Shown: positions 273-38,779 of the stretch, in pieces
How positions within the stretch are numbered: position 1 is the first letter of the stretch
Layout: each line of letters starts with the position of its first letter
Notes under the pieces: model-generated
Seen by the model: the letters and a program-made list of their open reading frames with translations, nothing else
Told to the model about the DNA's origin: nothing
Database searches by the model: none
Translations under genes and position numbers: made by a program
Virus record (IMG/VR): IMGVR_UViG_3300045741_000089
Location: 1 to 38,779 of that record
Reading direction: 5' to 3' (one strand)
DNA length: 38,779 bases
From: a virus

Positions 273-552
273 GGGAACCCTCATCATGGCTACTTTTCAA
301 GAACTGCAAGCGTCGGCCGACGCGCTGGAAGCCAAGGCCGCTGCCGATCTGGCTCAGTCCACTACCGCTGTTCAACTGCTGCAGGCCCTTTCCGCGACCG
401 TTGCGGACCTGCGCAGCCAGCTTCCCGGCACCGCTGTGACGCAAGCCCAGCTTGACGCGCTGGCGGCTCAGATCGGCCGCATCACCGGCACGCTGACGAC
501 TTCGGACGCGCAGCTTGACGCCGGCATCGCGGCGGCTACTCCGGCGCCGTGA
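208..552 (+). CDS. Coiled-coil small phage protein, 114 aa
   Basis: The GTG start overlaps the stop of the upstream gene (GTGA), so translational coupling is likely. An internal ATG at 286 (protein starting MATFQELQ) is an alternative start giving 88 residues. The product is rich in Ala, Leu, Gln and Asp with heptad-like spacing, predicting a long alpha-helical coiled coil, and has no Cys. Similar MATxxELQ helical proteins occur near fibre and lysis genes of many phages. It probably has a structural or accessory role; no enzymatic motif is present. Confidence 0.7.
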   Translation: MTTQLDRIESSLASLHRKLTSWGTLIMATFQELQASADALEAKAAADLAQSTTAVQLLQALSATVADLRSQLPGTAVTQAQLDALAAQIGRITGTLTTSDAQLDAGIAAATPAP

Positions 553-713
553 TAGACCACAGCCTGATCCGTCAGCAGGCGCTGCGCAACCGGCAGCGGA
601 TGGATCAGGCTCCAAATCTGGAGCCCATTGACTTCATCCGCCAAGAGTTAGCGGAAGAGGCCAAGAAAGCCCGGGAACTGGCAGAGGCTTACGCCAAAAG
701 CAAAGACGCCTAA
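549..713 (+). CDS. Small charged helical protein, 54 aa; stop lies in attC1
   Basis: The GTG at 549 overlaps the stop of the preceding gene (GTGA). The protein starts VIDHSLIRQQALRNRQRMD and ends with an Ala/Glu/Lys helix (EEAKKARELAEAYAKSKDA). The TAA stop at 711-713 lies inside the GCCTAAC R'' box of attC1, the usual arrangement of an integron cassette gene with its recombination site. No family recognised. It is the last gene of the rightward unit when the genome is read as a circle. Confidence 0.65.
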   Translation: MIDHSLIRQQALRNRQRMDQAPNLEPIDFIRQELAEEAKKARELAEAYAKSKDA

Positions 714-763
714 CGGCAGTTCAAGCGGACGCCTTTCAGTCGCCGCTTAACTTTGGGTTAGCC
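708..763 (+). other. attC: attC1: integron-type cassette recombination site (59-base element)
   Basis: R'' is GCCTAAC (708-714), matching RYYYAAC. R' is GTTAGCC (757-763), matching GTTRRRY except for one base. Between them is an imperfect hairpin: TT pairs AA (720-721 with 749-750), AAGCGG pairs CCGCTT (723-728 with 743-748), and CG pairs CG (730-731 with 741-742), with loop 732-740. C722 and A729 are unpaired in the top strand, which gives extrahelical G and T in the bottom strand. These set strand choice in known attC sites. Total length is 56 bp, within the usual range. Confidence 0.8.
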
Positions 764-928
764 CGCTCTCTCACTTCGGGCTCTCTTGCGTGCCAGCTTC
801 TCGGCGTACTCCGTCAGCGCAGGCGCATCGGCAGGGTGAACCCAGCGCTTCCACTGCACGCGGCCTGCGGATAGTTCGCGGGCTTTGCGCTCGGCCTGGC
901 GCTGGGCTGCGGTCTTGGCAGTGGTCAT
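758..928 (-). CDS. Small basic protein, 56 aa; paralogue of 13361-13555
   Basis: Begins MTTAKTAAQRQAERKAREL and contains RVQWKRWVHPADAPAL. It matches the protein at 13361-13555 along its first 40 or so residues (shared MT-AKT-AQRQA-KAR-L-AG-V-WVH-D--AL pattern), so the phage carries two copies of this family, one inside the cassette-like segment. Its TAA stop uses the TTA of the attC1 R' box. The start codon overlaps the stop of the upstream gene (ATGA). The charged helix followed by a WVH segment could suit DNA or protein binding; function unknown. Confidence 0.7.
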   Translation of the reverse strand: MTTAKTAAQRQAERKARELSAGRVQWKRWVHPADAPALTEYAEKLARKRARSERAG

Positions 929-1068
929 CGCAATGTCAGCCTAAGCCAAGCGGCCCACGCGCTGCGCACATCTGGCCCCCAAGCAGTCCACCAGCCGCGA
1001 GAAACGGCCCAGCCCCATTGCAGGACTGCGCCGTTACACCTTTGAACTCTGCGCAGCGTCGGTTTCAC
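925..1068 (-). CDS. Trp/Arg-rich 47-aa peptide
   Basis: GTG start overlapping the upstream stop (GTGA), and stop overlapping the downstream start (ATGA), so it is coupled on both sides in the three-gene reverse operon. The product is unusually rich in Trp (about eight in 47 residues) and Arg, with segments such as GWAVSRGWWTAWGPDVRS. No signal peptide or clear hydrophobic segment. No family recognised. The tight overlap on both sides is the main evidence that it is real. Confidence 0.55.
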   Translation of the reverse strand: MKPTLRRVQRCNGAVLQWGWAVSRGWWTAWGPDVRSAWAAWLRLTLR

Positions 1069-1298
1069 ACAGCCACCTTGTAGCCGTTTGCGCGCAGTTG
1101 CTTGGCAATGCTCGGGGCCACTTCGGCGCGCTCGCCGCCAAACTCGGCGCGAACCATCTTCAGGCCAGTCGGGTAAACCACGCTCGTGAAGCTCGCGCCT
1201 TTGGCGGCCAGGCGGCAGAAATGCATTGCCGCTTCTTTGTTCCAGCGGGCGATTGTGAAGGCGACTTCGCGGCGGGTCGTAATGCTCAGGTTGCTCAT
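1065..1298 (-). CDS. Hypothetical 77-aa protein, first gene of the cassette operon
   Basis: The ATG is preceded by a GGAG ribosome site about 7 bases away, and by a good promoter at 1334-1362. The protein begins MSNLSITTRREVAFTIARWN and ends ANGYKVAV, a compact mixed alpha/beta sequence without signal peptide or metal-binding motif. I do not recognise it. The gene before it in the twin promoter arrangement (12592-12813) is the same size but shows no clear sequence match. Confidence 0.7.
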   Translation of the reverse strand: MSNLSITTRREVAFTIARWNKEAAMHFCRLAAKGASFTSVVYPTGLKMVRAEFGGERAEVAPSIAKQLRANGYKVAV

Positions 1299-1333
1299 GT
1301 TTTTTGCTCCGGGTTGCGTGTTGCGATGAATGA

Positions 1334-1362
1334 ATATTAGTCCACCGTGAGCACTCACGCAA
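1334..1362 (-). promoter_or_regulatory. Sigma70-type promoter of the cassette operon (twin of 12538-12566)
   Basis: On the reverse strand: -35 TTGCGT (1362-1357), a 17-base spacer, and -10 TAATAT (1339-1334). The spacer and about 25 bases upstream are nearly identical to the promoter at 12538-12566, although spacers are normally free to vary. In this copy the spacer region holds a GTGAG-TG-CTCAC inverted repeat, a candidate operator. Confidence 0.7.
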
Positions 1363-1404
1363 GCACTATTTTCACTGTTACATCTGCGCGCTTCGGACAC
1401 GGCG

Positions 1405-1462
1405 GGCTAACCCGCAATTCAAGCGGACTGCCTACGGCAGCCGCTTAATTGCAACGTTAAAC
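1405..1462 (+). other. attC: attC2: integron-type cassette recombination site
   Basis: R'' GGCTAAC (1405-1411) deviates from RYYYAAC by one base; R' GTTAAAC (1456-1462) matches GTTRRRY exactly. The arms pair almost perfectly: GCAATT with AATTGC (1414-1419 with 1447-1452), AAGCGG with CCGCTT (1421-1426 with 1441-1446), and CTGCC with GGCAG (1428-1432 with 1436-1440), leaving a TAC loop. C1420 and A1427 are extrahelical, the same bases at the same spacing as in attC1. Length 58 bp. It lies between the cassette promoter and the ninB stop, which falls in R'. Confidence 0.82.
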
Positions 1463-1843
1463 CTCTTCCTCCGCCACAAATGCCTGCGCATACTCAATCA
1501 AGCTGCTCATGCGCGCCTTGCTCATCCTGGCGGTGCTCTCGCGGATGTTCAGGAACTCGCCTTCCAGCCCTAGCACCATCTCTGCGCCTTGCTTTGTCGC
1601 TACTGAGTGGCCGCTGATTAGCAGCACCTTCCACTCCTCCAGCGACCTACGCTTACCGGCCCACTGCCGGTCAGACTTCGCAAGATCGCGGCACAGGGCG
1701 TGGAACTTGGCGTTCTGCTCACTATTCCTGCGCGGCTTTTGGAAGATGACCTCGCATCCTTCGGGCGCCTCATGCTCTGCATAATCGCAAGCCCGCTGCC
1801 GAGCCTGCGCGTGCGAAAACACGAAGTGGCGAAGGATGCTCAT
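1457..1843 (-). CDS. ninB: NinB-family recombination protein
   Basis: 128 residues, the usual length of NinB (lambda Orf), which aids phage recombination by interacting with single-stranded DNA and SSB. Family hallmarks are the RRNSEQNAKFHALCRDLAKS segment, WAGKRRSLEEWKVLLISGH, the LEGEFLNIRESTARMS stretch and a final SLIEYAQAF helix. It follows the Ref-like and ERF-like genes with overlapping stop/start codons, forming a recombination module. Its TAA lies in the attC2 R' box, so recombination there would cut directly behind the coding sequence. Confidence 0.9.
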   Translation of the reverse strand: MSILRHFVFSHAQARQRACDYAEHEAPEGCEVIFQKPRRNSEQNAKFHALCRDLAKSDRQWAGKRRSLEEWKVLLISGHSVATKQGAEMVLGLEGEFLNIRESTARMSKARMSSLIEYAQAFVAEEEV

Positions 1844-9950: not shown

Positions 9951-10676
9951 ATGGCTGAGAAAGTAGTGATCGGGAGCGCGGAACTGTGGCACGGCGACTG
10001 CTTGGAGATACTGCCGCAGTTGCCCCGGCTTGGCGCCGTGATAACTGACCCACCCTACGGCATAAACACCAAGAGCGACGGCAGCGGCAAGCTGAGCCCA
10101 TGGGGCGATTTGGTGAACTCGGCGCATTGGTACGCGGCATGGATGCGTGAAGCGCGCGGCCGGCTTGCCCAGGATGGCGCGTTGTGGACCTGCCTAAACT
10201 GGCGTTCGATGGTAACGTTTCAGAAGGCCGCATGCGACCTGGGCTGGCCGATTGACTCGCTGATGGTGTGGGACAAAAAGTGGATTGGCCCAGGCGGTAC
10301 GCGTGGCCTGCGCCCGAGCTATGAGCTTGTGGCGTTGTTCGGCATGCCGAGCTTTGCCATCAAGGACCGTGGGCTGCCAGATGTGCAGCCGTTCCCTGTG
10401 GGTTCGTACAAGGCGACAGGGCACCCTGCCGAGAAGCCGGTGGCGCTGCTTGACTTCTTGGTGAAGCACACGCCCGGCGACCTGATTTGCGACCCGTTCA
10501 TGGGCAGCGGAACAACGGCGGTTGCTTGCGCTGCGGCCGGGCGGAGATTCATCGGCATTGAGATGGACCGCCAGTGGTTCGACCTGACGTGCGAGCGCAT
10601 CAGCCGCGCCCAGGCTCAGGGTGCGCTACTACCGGCCGAGGAACCGATACAGCCAGTGCAGGGCGAGATTCTGTGA
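9951..10676 (+). CDS. Beta-class DNA (N6-adenine or N4-cytosine) methyltransferase
   Basis: 241 residues, complete. The catalytic DPPYG is at residues 33-37, a GHPAEKP segment near 157-163, and the SAM-binding DPFMGSGTT at 181-189. Catalytic motif before the SAM motif is the permuted beta order. It transfers a methyl group from SAM to an exocyclic amino group of A or C in DNA. No cognate restriction enzyme is adjacent, so protection of phage DNA from host restriction, or regulation by methylation, are likely. Target sequence unknown. Confidence 0.88.
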   Translation: MAEKVVIGSAELWHGDCLEILPQLPRLGAVITDPPYGINTKSDGSGKLSPWGDLVNSAHWYAAWMREARGRLAQDGALWTCLNWRSMVTFQKAACDLGWPIDSLMVWDKKWIGPGGTRGLRPSYELVALFGMPSFAIKDRGLPDVQPFPVGSYKATGHPAEKPVALLDFLVKHTPGDLICDPFMGSGTTAVACAAAGRRFIGIEMDRQWFDLTCERISRAQAQGALLPAEEPIQPVQGEIL

Positions 10677-12237: not shown

Positions 12238-12534
12238 ATGAGAACCGCAGCCCGAGCCGACGACAACCAAGCCGAGATCGTGGAAGCGCTGCGGGCTGAA
12301 GGCTGCTACGTGGTCAACATCCGCTGGCCTGTTGACCTACTGGTGGGCGTTCCAAGTGCAGGCTGGCTTGCCGTAGAGGTAAAAGACGGCTCAAAGCCCA
12401 CCAGCGCCCGCAAGCTGACCGAAGTCCAGCTTGCGTTTATCGGCAGCGCTCCGCCAGGCTGTCCGACTGCGGTGGTGACGGATGTGGAATCGGCGCTAAG
12501 GGCTGTGCGGGCAATGTGTAACAGTGCAAAATAG
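12238..12534 (+). CDS. PD-(D/E)XK-type nuclease, 98 aa
   Basis: Starts RTAARADDNQAEIVEALRAE (after Met). It has VDLLVG (catalytic Asp) and AVEVKDGSKP (Glu-x-Lys), the core of a small restriction-fold nuclease of the VRR-NUC/resolvase-like kind, then SARKLTEVQLAFI. Small proteins of this layout are frequent in phages. It begins immediately after attC3 and lies just upstream of the twin promoter. Substrate unknown; junction or flap processing is possible. Confidence 0.75.
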   Translation: MRTAARADDNQAEIVEALRAEGCYVVNIRWPVDLLVGVPSAGWLAVEVKDGSKPTSARKLTEVQLAFIGSAPPGCPTAVVTDVESALRAVRAMCNSAK

Positions 12535-12537
12535 GGC

Positions 12538-12566
12538 TTGCGTGAGCGCTAGCGGTGGACTATAGT
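12538..12566 (+). promoter_or_regulatory. Sigma70-type promoter (twin of 1334-1362)
   Basis: -35 TTGCGT (12538-12543), 17-base spacer, -10 TATAGT (12561-12566). The spacer (12544-12560) and the preceding TAACAGTG-rich stretch are nearly identical to the cassette promoter on the other strand. Conservation inside a spacer suggests a bound regulator. Drives 12592-13962. Confidence 0.72.
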
Positions 12567-12591
12567 TCAGTCATCAACACCGGAGCACGAC

Positions 12592-12813
12592 ATGGCAACC
12601 TTCCAGCAAATCCAGACCGCAACGATGGCCGCAAGGCGCGCGACTGGCATGCCCGGGATCGGGACGCAGGTGAATGCGGGCCGGTTCCAAGTGGTGAATG
12701 TTTCCTACGGCAAGCGCGGCAAGTCTGACGTGCTGGCGCTGTCCGACTGGATCAGCGTTGACGCGGCCATCGAAGTGCTGCGCCAGATCGAAGCCGACAA
12801 GGGTTGGCACTAA
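12592..12813 (+). CDS. Hypothetical 73-aa protein
   Basis: CGGAG precedes the ATG and the twin promoter precedes that. Begins MATFQQIQTATMAARRATGM and ends VDAAIEVLRQIEADKGWH. It ends one base before the cytosine-methyltransferase-like start. Function unknown; it occupies the same position behind the conserved promoter as the 77-aa gene does in the cassette. Confidence 0.72.
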   Translation: MATFQQIQTATMAARRATGMPGIGTQVNAGRFQVVNVSYGKRGKSDVLALSDWISVDAAIEVLRQIEADKGWH

Positions 12814-37996: not shown

Positions 37997-38718
37997 TGGA
38001 CCGCGCGGCCGGCTGGATCATCGTGCGCGGCCTGCTAGTGCTGGCTGGCCTGTTCTGGCTGGCCGGCAGGGCTGACGCATGGTGCACGATGCCGCCGCCT
38101 GCAAACCCCGGGCCGGCGCAGCCTCAACTTCCGAACGTGGCGCACAAGTGCTGGCCGCAAAAGTGGGGGCTGTCGTTCCTGAGCGGCCAAGGCTACGTCG
38201 AAGGCGACATTGCAGCGGTGCCAGGCGCAACCACGGAAGGCGGCCATTGCGCTGCGTGGTGGTGCAAGGATTCCGCTGGCGCGTGGAACGTGGAAAGCCA
38301 TTGTGCGCTGACCAGCTATACGGTAGGCGGTGTCATGTCGGGCATTACTTCCGCGCTGGGAGCGACCGATCCGGTATCTGCTCTGCAAGCCTTTGCCGAC
38401 AAATACGTGGTCACGCTGACCGATCCGGGGCAGATCAACTCGTACAACTGCCTGCACTGGGCCATCCAGCAGCAGGCGCAAGCCACGAAGCCAAGTGCTG
38501 TGCCGCCACCAGTGGCGTACTGGGTGACCAGCACGACGGCCTACCCGCTGAACCCGGACGGCACTCGGTCAATCACACCGTGGCCTACCAAAGCGCTGCT
38601 GCATGAGCCTTGCGATTGCTCCATTAAGGTGACACAGTTTGGCGCTACCTTTTGCAAGGTTCCAACCCTCAGCACTCCGGCCCTGGCGGTGGTCGCCGGT
38701 TGCGGAGTTTCCAAGTGA
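37996..38718 (+). CDS. Exported Cys-rich phage protein, 240 aa
   Basis: ATG overlaps the preceding stop. N-terminal signal MDRAAGWIIVRGLLVLAGLF with ADA cleavage-type end (ADAWC). The mature part has about ten Cys (HCAAWWCKDSAGAW, YNCLHWAIQQQ, HEPCDCSIKV) and Trp-rich motifs, so it is a disulfide-bonded periplasmic or outer-surface protein. It contains no known hydrolase motif. Its 3' part has a divergent allele at 2-211. Function unknown; position suggests lysis, adsorption or exclusion. Confidence 0.72.
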   Translation: MDRAAGWIIVRGLLVLAGLFWLAGRADAWCTMPPPANPGPAQPQLPNVAHKCWPQKWGLSFLSGQGYVEGDIAAVPGATTEGGHCAAWWCKDSAGAWNVESHCALTSYTVGGVMSGITSALGATDPVSALQAFADKYVVTLTDPGQINSYNCLHWAIQQQAQATKPSAVPPPVAYWVTSTTAYPLNPDGTRSITPWPTKALLHEPCDCSIKVTQFGATFCKVPTLSTPALAVVAGCGVSK

Positions 38719-38779
38719 CCACCCAACTAGACCGCATCGAATCTTCGCTGGCTTCGCTGCATCGCAAACTAACCTCGTG
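38508..38779. repeat. Right copy of imperfect terminal overlap (pairs with 1-272)
   Basis: Aligns to 1-272 with 15 mismatches, the last being 38652 against 145. From 38653 to the end the 127 bases are identical. See the left copy for interpretation. Confidence 0.85.
38715..38779 (+). CDS. 5' fragment of the coiled-coil gene (208-552)
   Basis: The first 65 bases of the same gene that is complete at 208-552, cut by the window edge. GTG overlaps the stop of 37996-38718. On the circle it is one gene. Confidence 0.75.
   Translation, partial: MTTQLDRIESSLASLHRKLTS

Follow-up and report, generated by a model that had tools for sequence, protein, structure and literature searches.

Location and gene content of the segment

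The window, i.e. the whole stretch of 38,779 bases that was analysed, is the virus record IMGVR_UViG_3300045741_000089. Terminase, portal and other structural genes occupy its right part, and a leftward operon of erf, an 89-aa gene (p89) and ninB its left end. Two attC sites are located between ninB and the end of the rightward gene set, and enclose a short segment. The features of this region, and the single related element elsewhere in the window, are:

549..713, plus strand: flanking gene of 54 aa (codon score +9.7), with its stop codon in the R'' box of attC1
708..763, plus strand: attC1, R'' GCCTAAC and R' GTTAGCC, cut 757/758 (36.8 bits, E 2e-7; bottom-strand fold z -3.0)
758..1456, no strand assigned: gene cassette, 699 bp from G/TT to G/TT, with 10-nt complementary ends
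758..928, minus strand: ORF of 56 aa, possibly a small basic protein (weak codon score of +2.6, no clear ribosome-binding site, two-helix model)
925..1068, minus strand: ORF of 47 aa (codon score -10.7)
1065..1298, minus strand: main cassette gene of 77 aa, inverted relative to attC (Shine-Dalgarno sequence, codon score +11.6, phage homologue)
1318..1382, minus strand: phage-type promoter element of the cassette
1405..1462, plus strand: attC2, the cassette's own attC, R'' GGCTAAC and R' GTTAAAC, cut 1456/1457 (56 bits, E 1.7e-12; fold z -4.95)
1457..1843, minus strand: ninB, flanking phage gene (Pfam NinB, E 1.4e-33), with its stop codon in the right half of the attC2 R' box
12517..12580, plus strand: second copy of the promoter element, preceding an unrelated 73-aa gene that starts at 12592

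The record ends (2-272 and 38509-38779) have about 271 bp in common at 95.6% identity, inside a 240-aa gene, which probably reflects either an imperfect terminal repeat or the joining of two strains in the assembly of a circular genome. A DNA methyltransferase is encoded at 9951-10676. Its relatives are cassette genes of other phages (L276, L274, L226), some of them with the common start MAEKVVIG.AELWHGDC, and no detectable attC flanks the copy in the window.

The two attC sites

A covariance model trained on 26 attCs, all of them from bacterial genomes or plasmids and none from the window or other viruses, retrieves just attC1 and attC2 from the whole window, both on the plus strand, besides their weaker mirror images on the minus strand (15.9 bits for attC2 vs 56 on the plus strand, 20.3 for attC1 vs 36.8). 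According to the scores by strand, both sites possess the R''-L''-L'-R' boxes and the asymmetric extrahelical base. Their bottom strands fold better than all of 200 shuffles, and BLAST places them beside plasmid attCs, including those of aadA5 cassettes at 76-78%. attC2 differs from other viral attCs by 2-4 mismatches in 54, vs at least 12 in 54 from the bacterial and plasmid loci examined. attC1 is the weaker of the two sites, and no cassette belonging to attC1 itself is visible to its left. With two nearby attCs and no intI, the window contains a single-cassette CALIN. The original prediction of a segment bounded by two attCs of the same orientation, with cuts that give 758-1456, is borne out by the covariance scores and by the 699 bp between the cuts.

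In an Rfam search nothing comes close to the gathering score of any family, and the phage isolate collection contains no convincing copy of attC2, nor of a second viral attC. In one plasmid, 42 nt (L092:5001-5042) match the core of attC2 at 93% identity; the R boxes there do not seem to be intact, and the gene of a group II intron reverse transcriptase is nearby.

Cassette edges and circle signature

In an excised cassette circle, the first bases of the cassette supply the R' box. In the window, the 10 nt at 757-766, GTTAGCCCGC, match the reverse complement of 1402-1411, GCGGGCTAAC, without a mismatch, as do 3 of 200,000 random placements at such geometry; the R'' box of attC2 pairs over 4 nt with its present right-hand R' partner. 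The cassette ends are perfect inverted complements over these 10 nt, so that R' and R'' would pair fully in the excised circle, and the segment thus combines G/TT edges with an R'/R'' complementarity that circularisation restores. The rebuilt circle site folds at -29.1 kcal/mol, vs -18.0 for the site in place. The same signature has a mean of 9.0 nt in 119 viral cassettes (5.2 nt with random starts) and of 7.9 nt in 133 bacterial cassettes (5.7 nt); the viral cassettes pair on average over 5.3 nt with their present right-hand partner. Use of the signature as proof of the attC strand was rejected because it is strand-symmetric.

Judged by its sequence, the segment 758-1456 of this bacterial virus is a true integron gene cassette, and the earlier proposal of a phage-borne cassette in reverse orientation is well supported by both the attC model and the circle signature. 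A relative with an empty site was sought in the collections, where none was close enough; the closest ninB relative is 69% identical and differs in gene order.

Genes and promoter of the cassette

Three overlapping genes had been proposed for the cassette. The 77-aa ORF is its sole well-supported gene, with a Shine-Dalgarno sequence and a positive codon score. One other phage (L083/L084) encodes a homologue of 83% identity, which is situated outside any cassette, no attC being detected there. The 56-aa ORF is a weak candidate, and the 47-aa ORF, with its negative codon score, is probably not coding. No homologue of the 77-aa protein occurs in the phage isolate collection, and none was found in plasmids or in bacterial genomes, the latter scanned with two short peptide patterns only, so that more distant homologues could be missed. 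Homologues among integron cassettes, which the original prediction led us to expect, are thus absent from the plasmids and bacterial genomes searched; if the cassette pool is phage-specific, a missing bacterial homologue does not refute a cassette.

Searches of the cassette proteins against Pfam, PHROG and PADLOC return no match, hence none to a known toxin, antitoxin or defence protein, and the idea of an anti-defence or toxin-antitoxin function finds no support in this cassette. The structure model of the 77-aa protein has low confidence at residues 1-19 and matches nothing in the PDB better than E 0.27, and that of the 56-aa protein consists of two helices (pLDDT 72); neither predicted model points to a function.

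The promoter element at 1318-1382 recurs in this phage at 12517-12580, with 83% identity, and is therefore regarded as a phage-type promoter. The two copies may form a phage regulon. No sigma-70 match at scan threshold is present in the promoter region of the cassette, and the promoter pattern has no match in the viral contigs searched. Of the strong reverse promoter proposed earlier, the repeated element stands, but the attribute "strong" lacks the support of a sigma-70 consensus.

Integrases

The window record contains no tyrosine recombinase or Phage_integrase domain and no IntI match, i.e. the element does not include the intI gene of a complete integron. Several other viral records encode IntI relatives, one of which is intact:

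L277:15264-16214 (record G033): intact integron integrase beside an array, recognised by all five catalytic residues and the IntI-specific insertion

Partial or intact relatives of this integrase are present in L276, L235, L228 and L234. G033 has intI and attC on opposite strands, the usual arrangement in integrons. Its platform is therefore classical, and it is the cassette genes that are turned round, running with intI.

attC arrays in other viral records

Viral and bacterial sequences were picked with a pattern of one attC subtype, which matched 56 stretches of viral contigs and, in bacterial genomes, 118 or more. The viral sample is thus chosen by a single subtype, consists of metagenomic records and includes some near duplicates (G033 and G034 have a common array). 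A regular-expression attC finder was dropped because strands are not distinguishable with it. Among 50 IMG/VR records searched whole, 49 possess attCs at E 0.01 or better, with up to 16 sites per record. Their large ORFs encode portal (G005, G019, G048, G028), terminase (G026, G010, G019, G038, G004), head closure (G026) and virion structural proteins (G047), as well as a tail fibre and DnaB (G033), which identifies the array-bearing records as phages. Many viral attCs adjoin terminase, portal or tail genes.

Phage G009, with an array of about 14 sites, has 71% and 84% identical matches to two ORFs of the window. The terminase of phage G003 is 69% identical to that of the window; two attCs are present in this phage, and its genes are called antisense to them, though not confidently (score difference 1.1). 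In two more loci with ninB (L004, L006), this gene is followed by an attC on the other strand.

In the bacterium MS502-43 (L146), cassettes are alike at 90-95% in their last 160-250 bases and different in the remainder, as if genes had been exchanged inside cassettes.

Gene polarity relative to attC

In integron cassettes the gene usually reads toward its own attC, but this is not obligatory. In the window, the candidate genes are on the minus strand and attC is on the plus strand. Orientation was called with a codon model trained on the long ORFs of the same records, which replaced counts of longest-ORF orientation, and the attC strand from extrahelical bases, spacer asymmetry and integrase position. 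The best ORF is reverse relative to attC in 104 of 119 viral cassettes and forward in 15 (91 and 5 among confident calls), vs 13 reverse and 120 forward in 133 bacterial control cassettes (confident calls: none and 45). Genes predicted no more than 700 bp from viral attCs fall 520 times on the opposite and 23 times on the same strand. G009, G026 and G004 possess oppositely oriented arrays on two divergent arms, with each attC antisense to its genes; a single founder orientation therefore cannot explain the inversion.

The viral attC is commonly situated just before the start codon (within 40 nt in 68 of 99 cases). In 17 cases, comprising 16 of 43 long attCs and one of 56 short ones, the start codon is inside attC, the arm of which therefore encodes the first residues. 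Long attCs such as L276:15709-15810, L254:1703-1804 and L262:8525-8627, among others, have a loop whose bottom strand includes an ATG and a ribosome-binding site, and PLEPSVRP is an example of N-terminal residues encoded by a long attC arm. Transfer of the cassette body together with its own attC is a trend only (12 of 19 pairs).

We define inverted phage cassettes as those in a phage record with attC antisense to both the cassette gene and the flanking operon. The window belongs to this group, with ninB and the 77-aa gene on the minus strand and attC2 on the plus strand. The kinship with reverse cassettes of chromosomal integrons assumed in the original prediction gives way to one with other phages, in which inversion is the rule.

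Origin of the cassette

Built on features read from the nucleotide data themselves (both attCs, the cassette edges, the circle signature, the inversion, the phage context and the generality of inversion in the sampled phages), our explanation is that 758-1456 is an inverted integron cassette put in at attC1 by attC x attC recombination with an outside integrase, a reading to which we assign a probability of roughly 85%. The insertion would have taken place between two converging phage operons. Since the record itself lacks an integrase, the reaction would have to depend on an integron integrase from elsewhere, encoded by the host or by a co-infecting element. As attC2 is upstream of the gene, the gene is read along the leftward recombination operon of the phage (erf, p89, ninB), and would be expressed from this ninB operon in addition to the internal promoter.

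The two palindromes could also be two-way terminators between converging operons that resemble attC, and the segment an ordinary phage moron: attC1 is indeed located between converging genes, both sites form hairpins, and another phage has the 77-aa gene with no detectable attC. We regard this as very improbable, given the full R''-L''-L'-R' architecture with the attC extrahelical base at E 1.7e-12 and 2e-7, the lack of a U-run terminator at the attC cores, the complementarity of the ends over 10 nt (3 in 200,000 by chance) and the arrays of up to 16 such sites in related phages; moreover, attC2 is not between converging genes, ninB and the cassette gene being co-directional. Against an ordinary bacterial reverse-oriented cassette, picked up by chance from a host integron, stand the greater closeness of attC2 to viral than to bacterial or plasmid attCs, the homologue of the 77-aa protein in a phage with none found in plasmids or bacterial genomes, the promoter common to the same phage, and inversion as the rule in phage arrays. 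Such an origin would agree with the self-promoted reverse cassettes expected originally and with the 13 of 133 bacterial cassettes that score reverse, albeit none confidently, and we consider it improbable.

A fossil, i.e. a cassette once inserted by an integrase and now immobile, is unlikely, if less so. The R'' and R' boxes of attC2 pair over 4 nt, attC1 is weaker, and an integrase is not present in the phage. However, poor pairing is normal in the integrated state, as the mean of 5.3 nt in viral cassettes illustrates, and published phage attCs without intI recombine with IntI1 (PMC9892861).

Relation to known cassette systems

A survey of 10,705 phage genomes described integrons and 17 CALINs (Qi et al. 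2023, PMC9892861); of six phage attCs assayed, five underwent IntI1-mediated recombination with attI1 (PMC9892861). Genes in attC direction, as in TJE1, were called the typical structure (PMC9892861). TJE1 as re-scored here has attCs at 244-293 and 1016-1075, both on the plus strand, with genes likewise on the plus strand, i.e. forward. The window resembles these phage CALINs in having attCs without an integrase inside a phage, but it is inverted, as is nearly the whole sampled set. Phage CALINs are thus already known and the inverted polarity of phage arrays is the new part; in the literature searched, which covered few subscription papers or preprints, no description of inverted phage arrays was found.

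Bacterial cassettes (class 1 of the aadA5 type, Rhodanobacter and other chromosomal arrays) are alike in attC architecture, G/TT edges and circle complementarity, but have attC after the gene (45 confident forward calls, none reverse), whereas it precedes the gene in the cassette of the window. Phage morons, too, are small gene units with their own promoter between phage genes; their edges arise by illegitimate recombination, in contrast to the site-specific attC sites that set the edges here.

The inverted polarity would place the recombinogenic bottom strand of attC on the coding strand, which would serve as lagging-strand template if transcription and replication run in one direction. The lagging-strand reasoning follows work in Vibrio, where excision was higher with the bottom strand of attC as lagging-strand template (PMC11023631). 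The likeness to the inverted sedentary integron of Vibrio cholerae, in which the bottom strand is likewise on the lagging-strand template, holds here only if replication follows transcription; moreover, a whole array was experimentally inverted relative to the fork in V. cholerae (PMC11023631), whereas in the phages each gene is naturally inverted relative to its own attC. A bottom strand that is also the coding strand might be exposed more as single strand, with more folding and frequent swapping of small accessory genes.

Implications for phage biology

Integrons are treated as bacterial devices, and their occurrence in phages as rare pick-ups. From the sampled arrays we infer that phages keep their own cassette pool in inverted polarity. 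A phage-carried pool of opposite gene direction suggests that phages run their own version of the gene-swapping system. We consider it somewhat probable that environmental phages of several terminase types keep such a system, with attC 5' of a gene that is read against attC polarity, cassettes moved by IntI of phage or host, a pool separate from the bacterial one, and the recombinogenic strand as the coding strand.

If arrays of opposite polarity are a standing feature of many phages, these would possess a site-specific means of swapping small accessory genes, including methyltransferases. Phages would then own a separate cassette pool, which might be a possible source of the reversed cassettes seen in bacteria, and a small replicating genome would be at hand in which to test how attC strand, transcription and recombination rate are linked.
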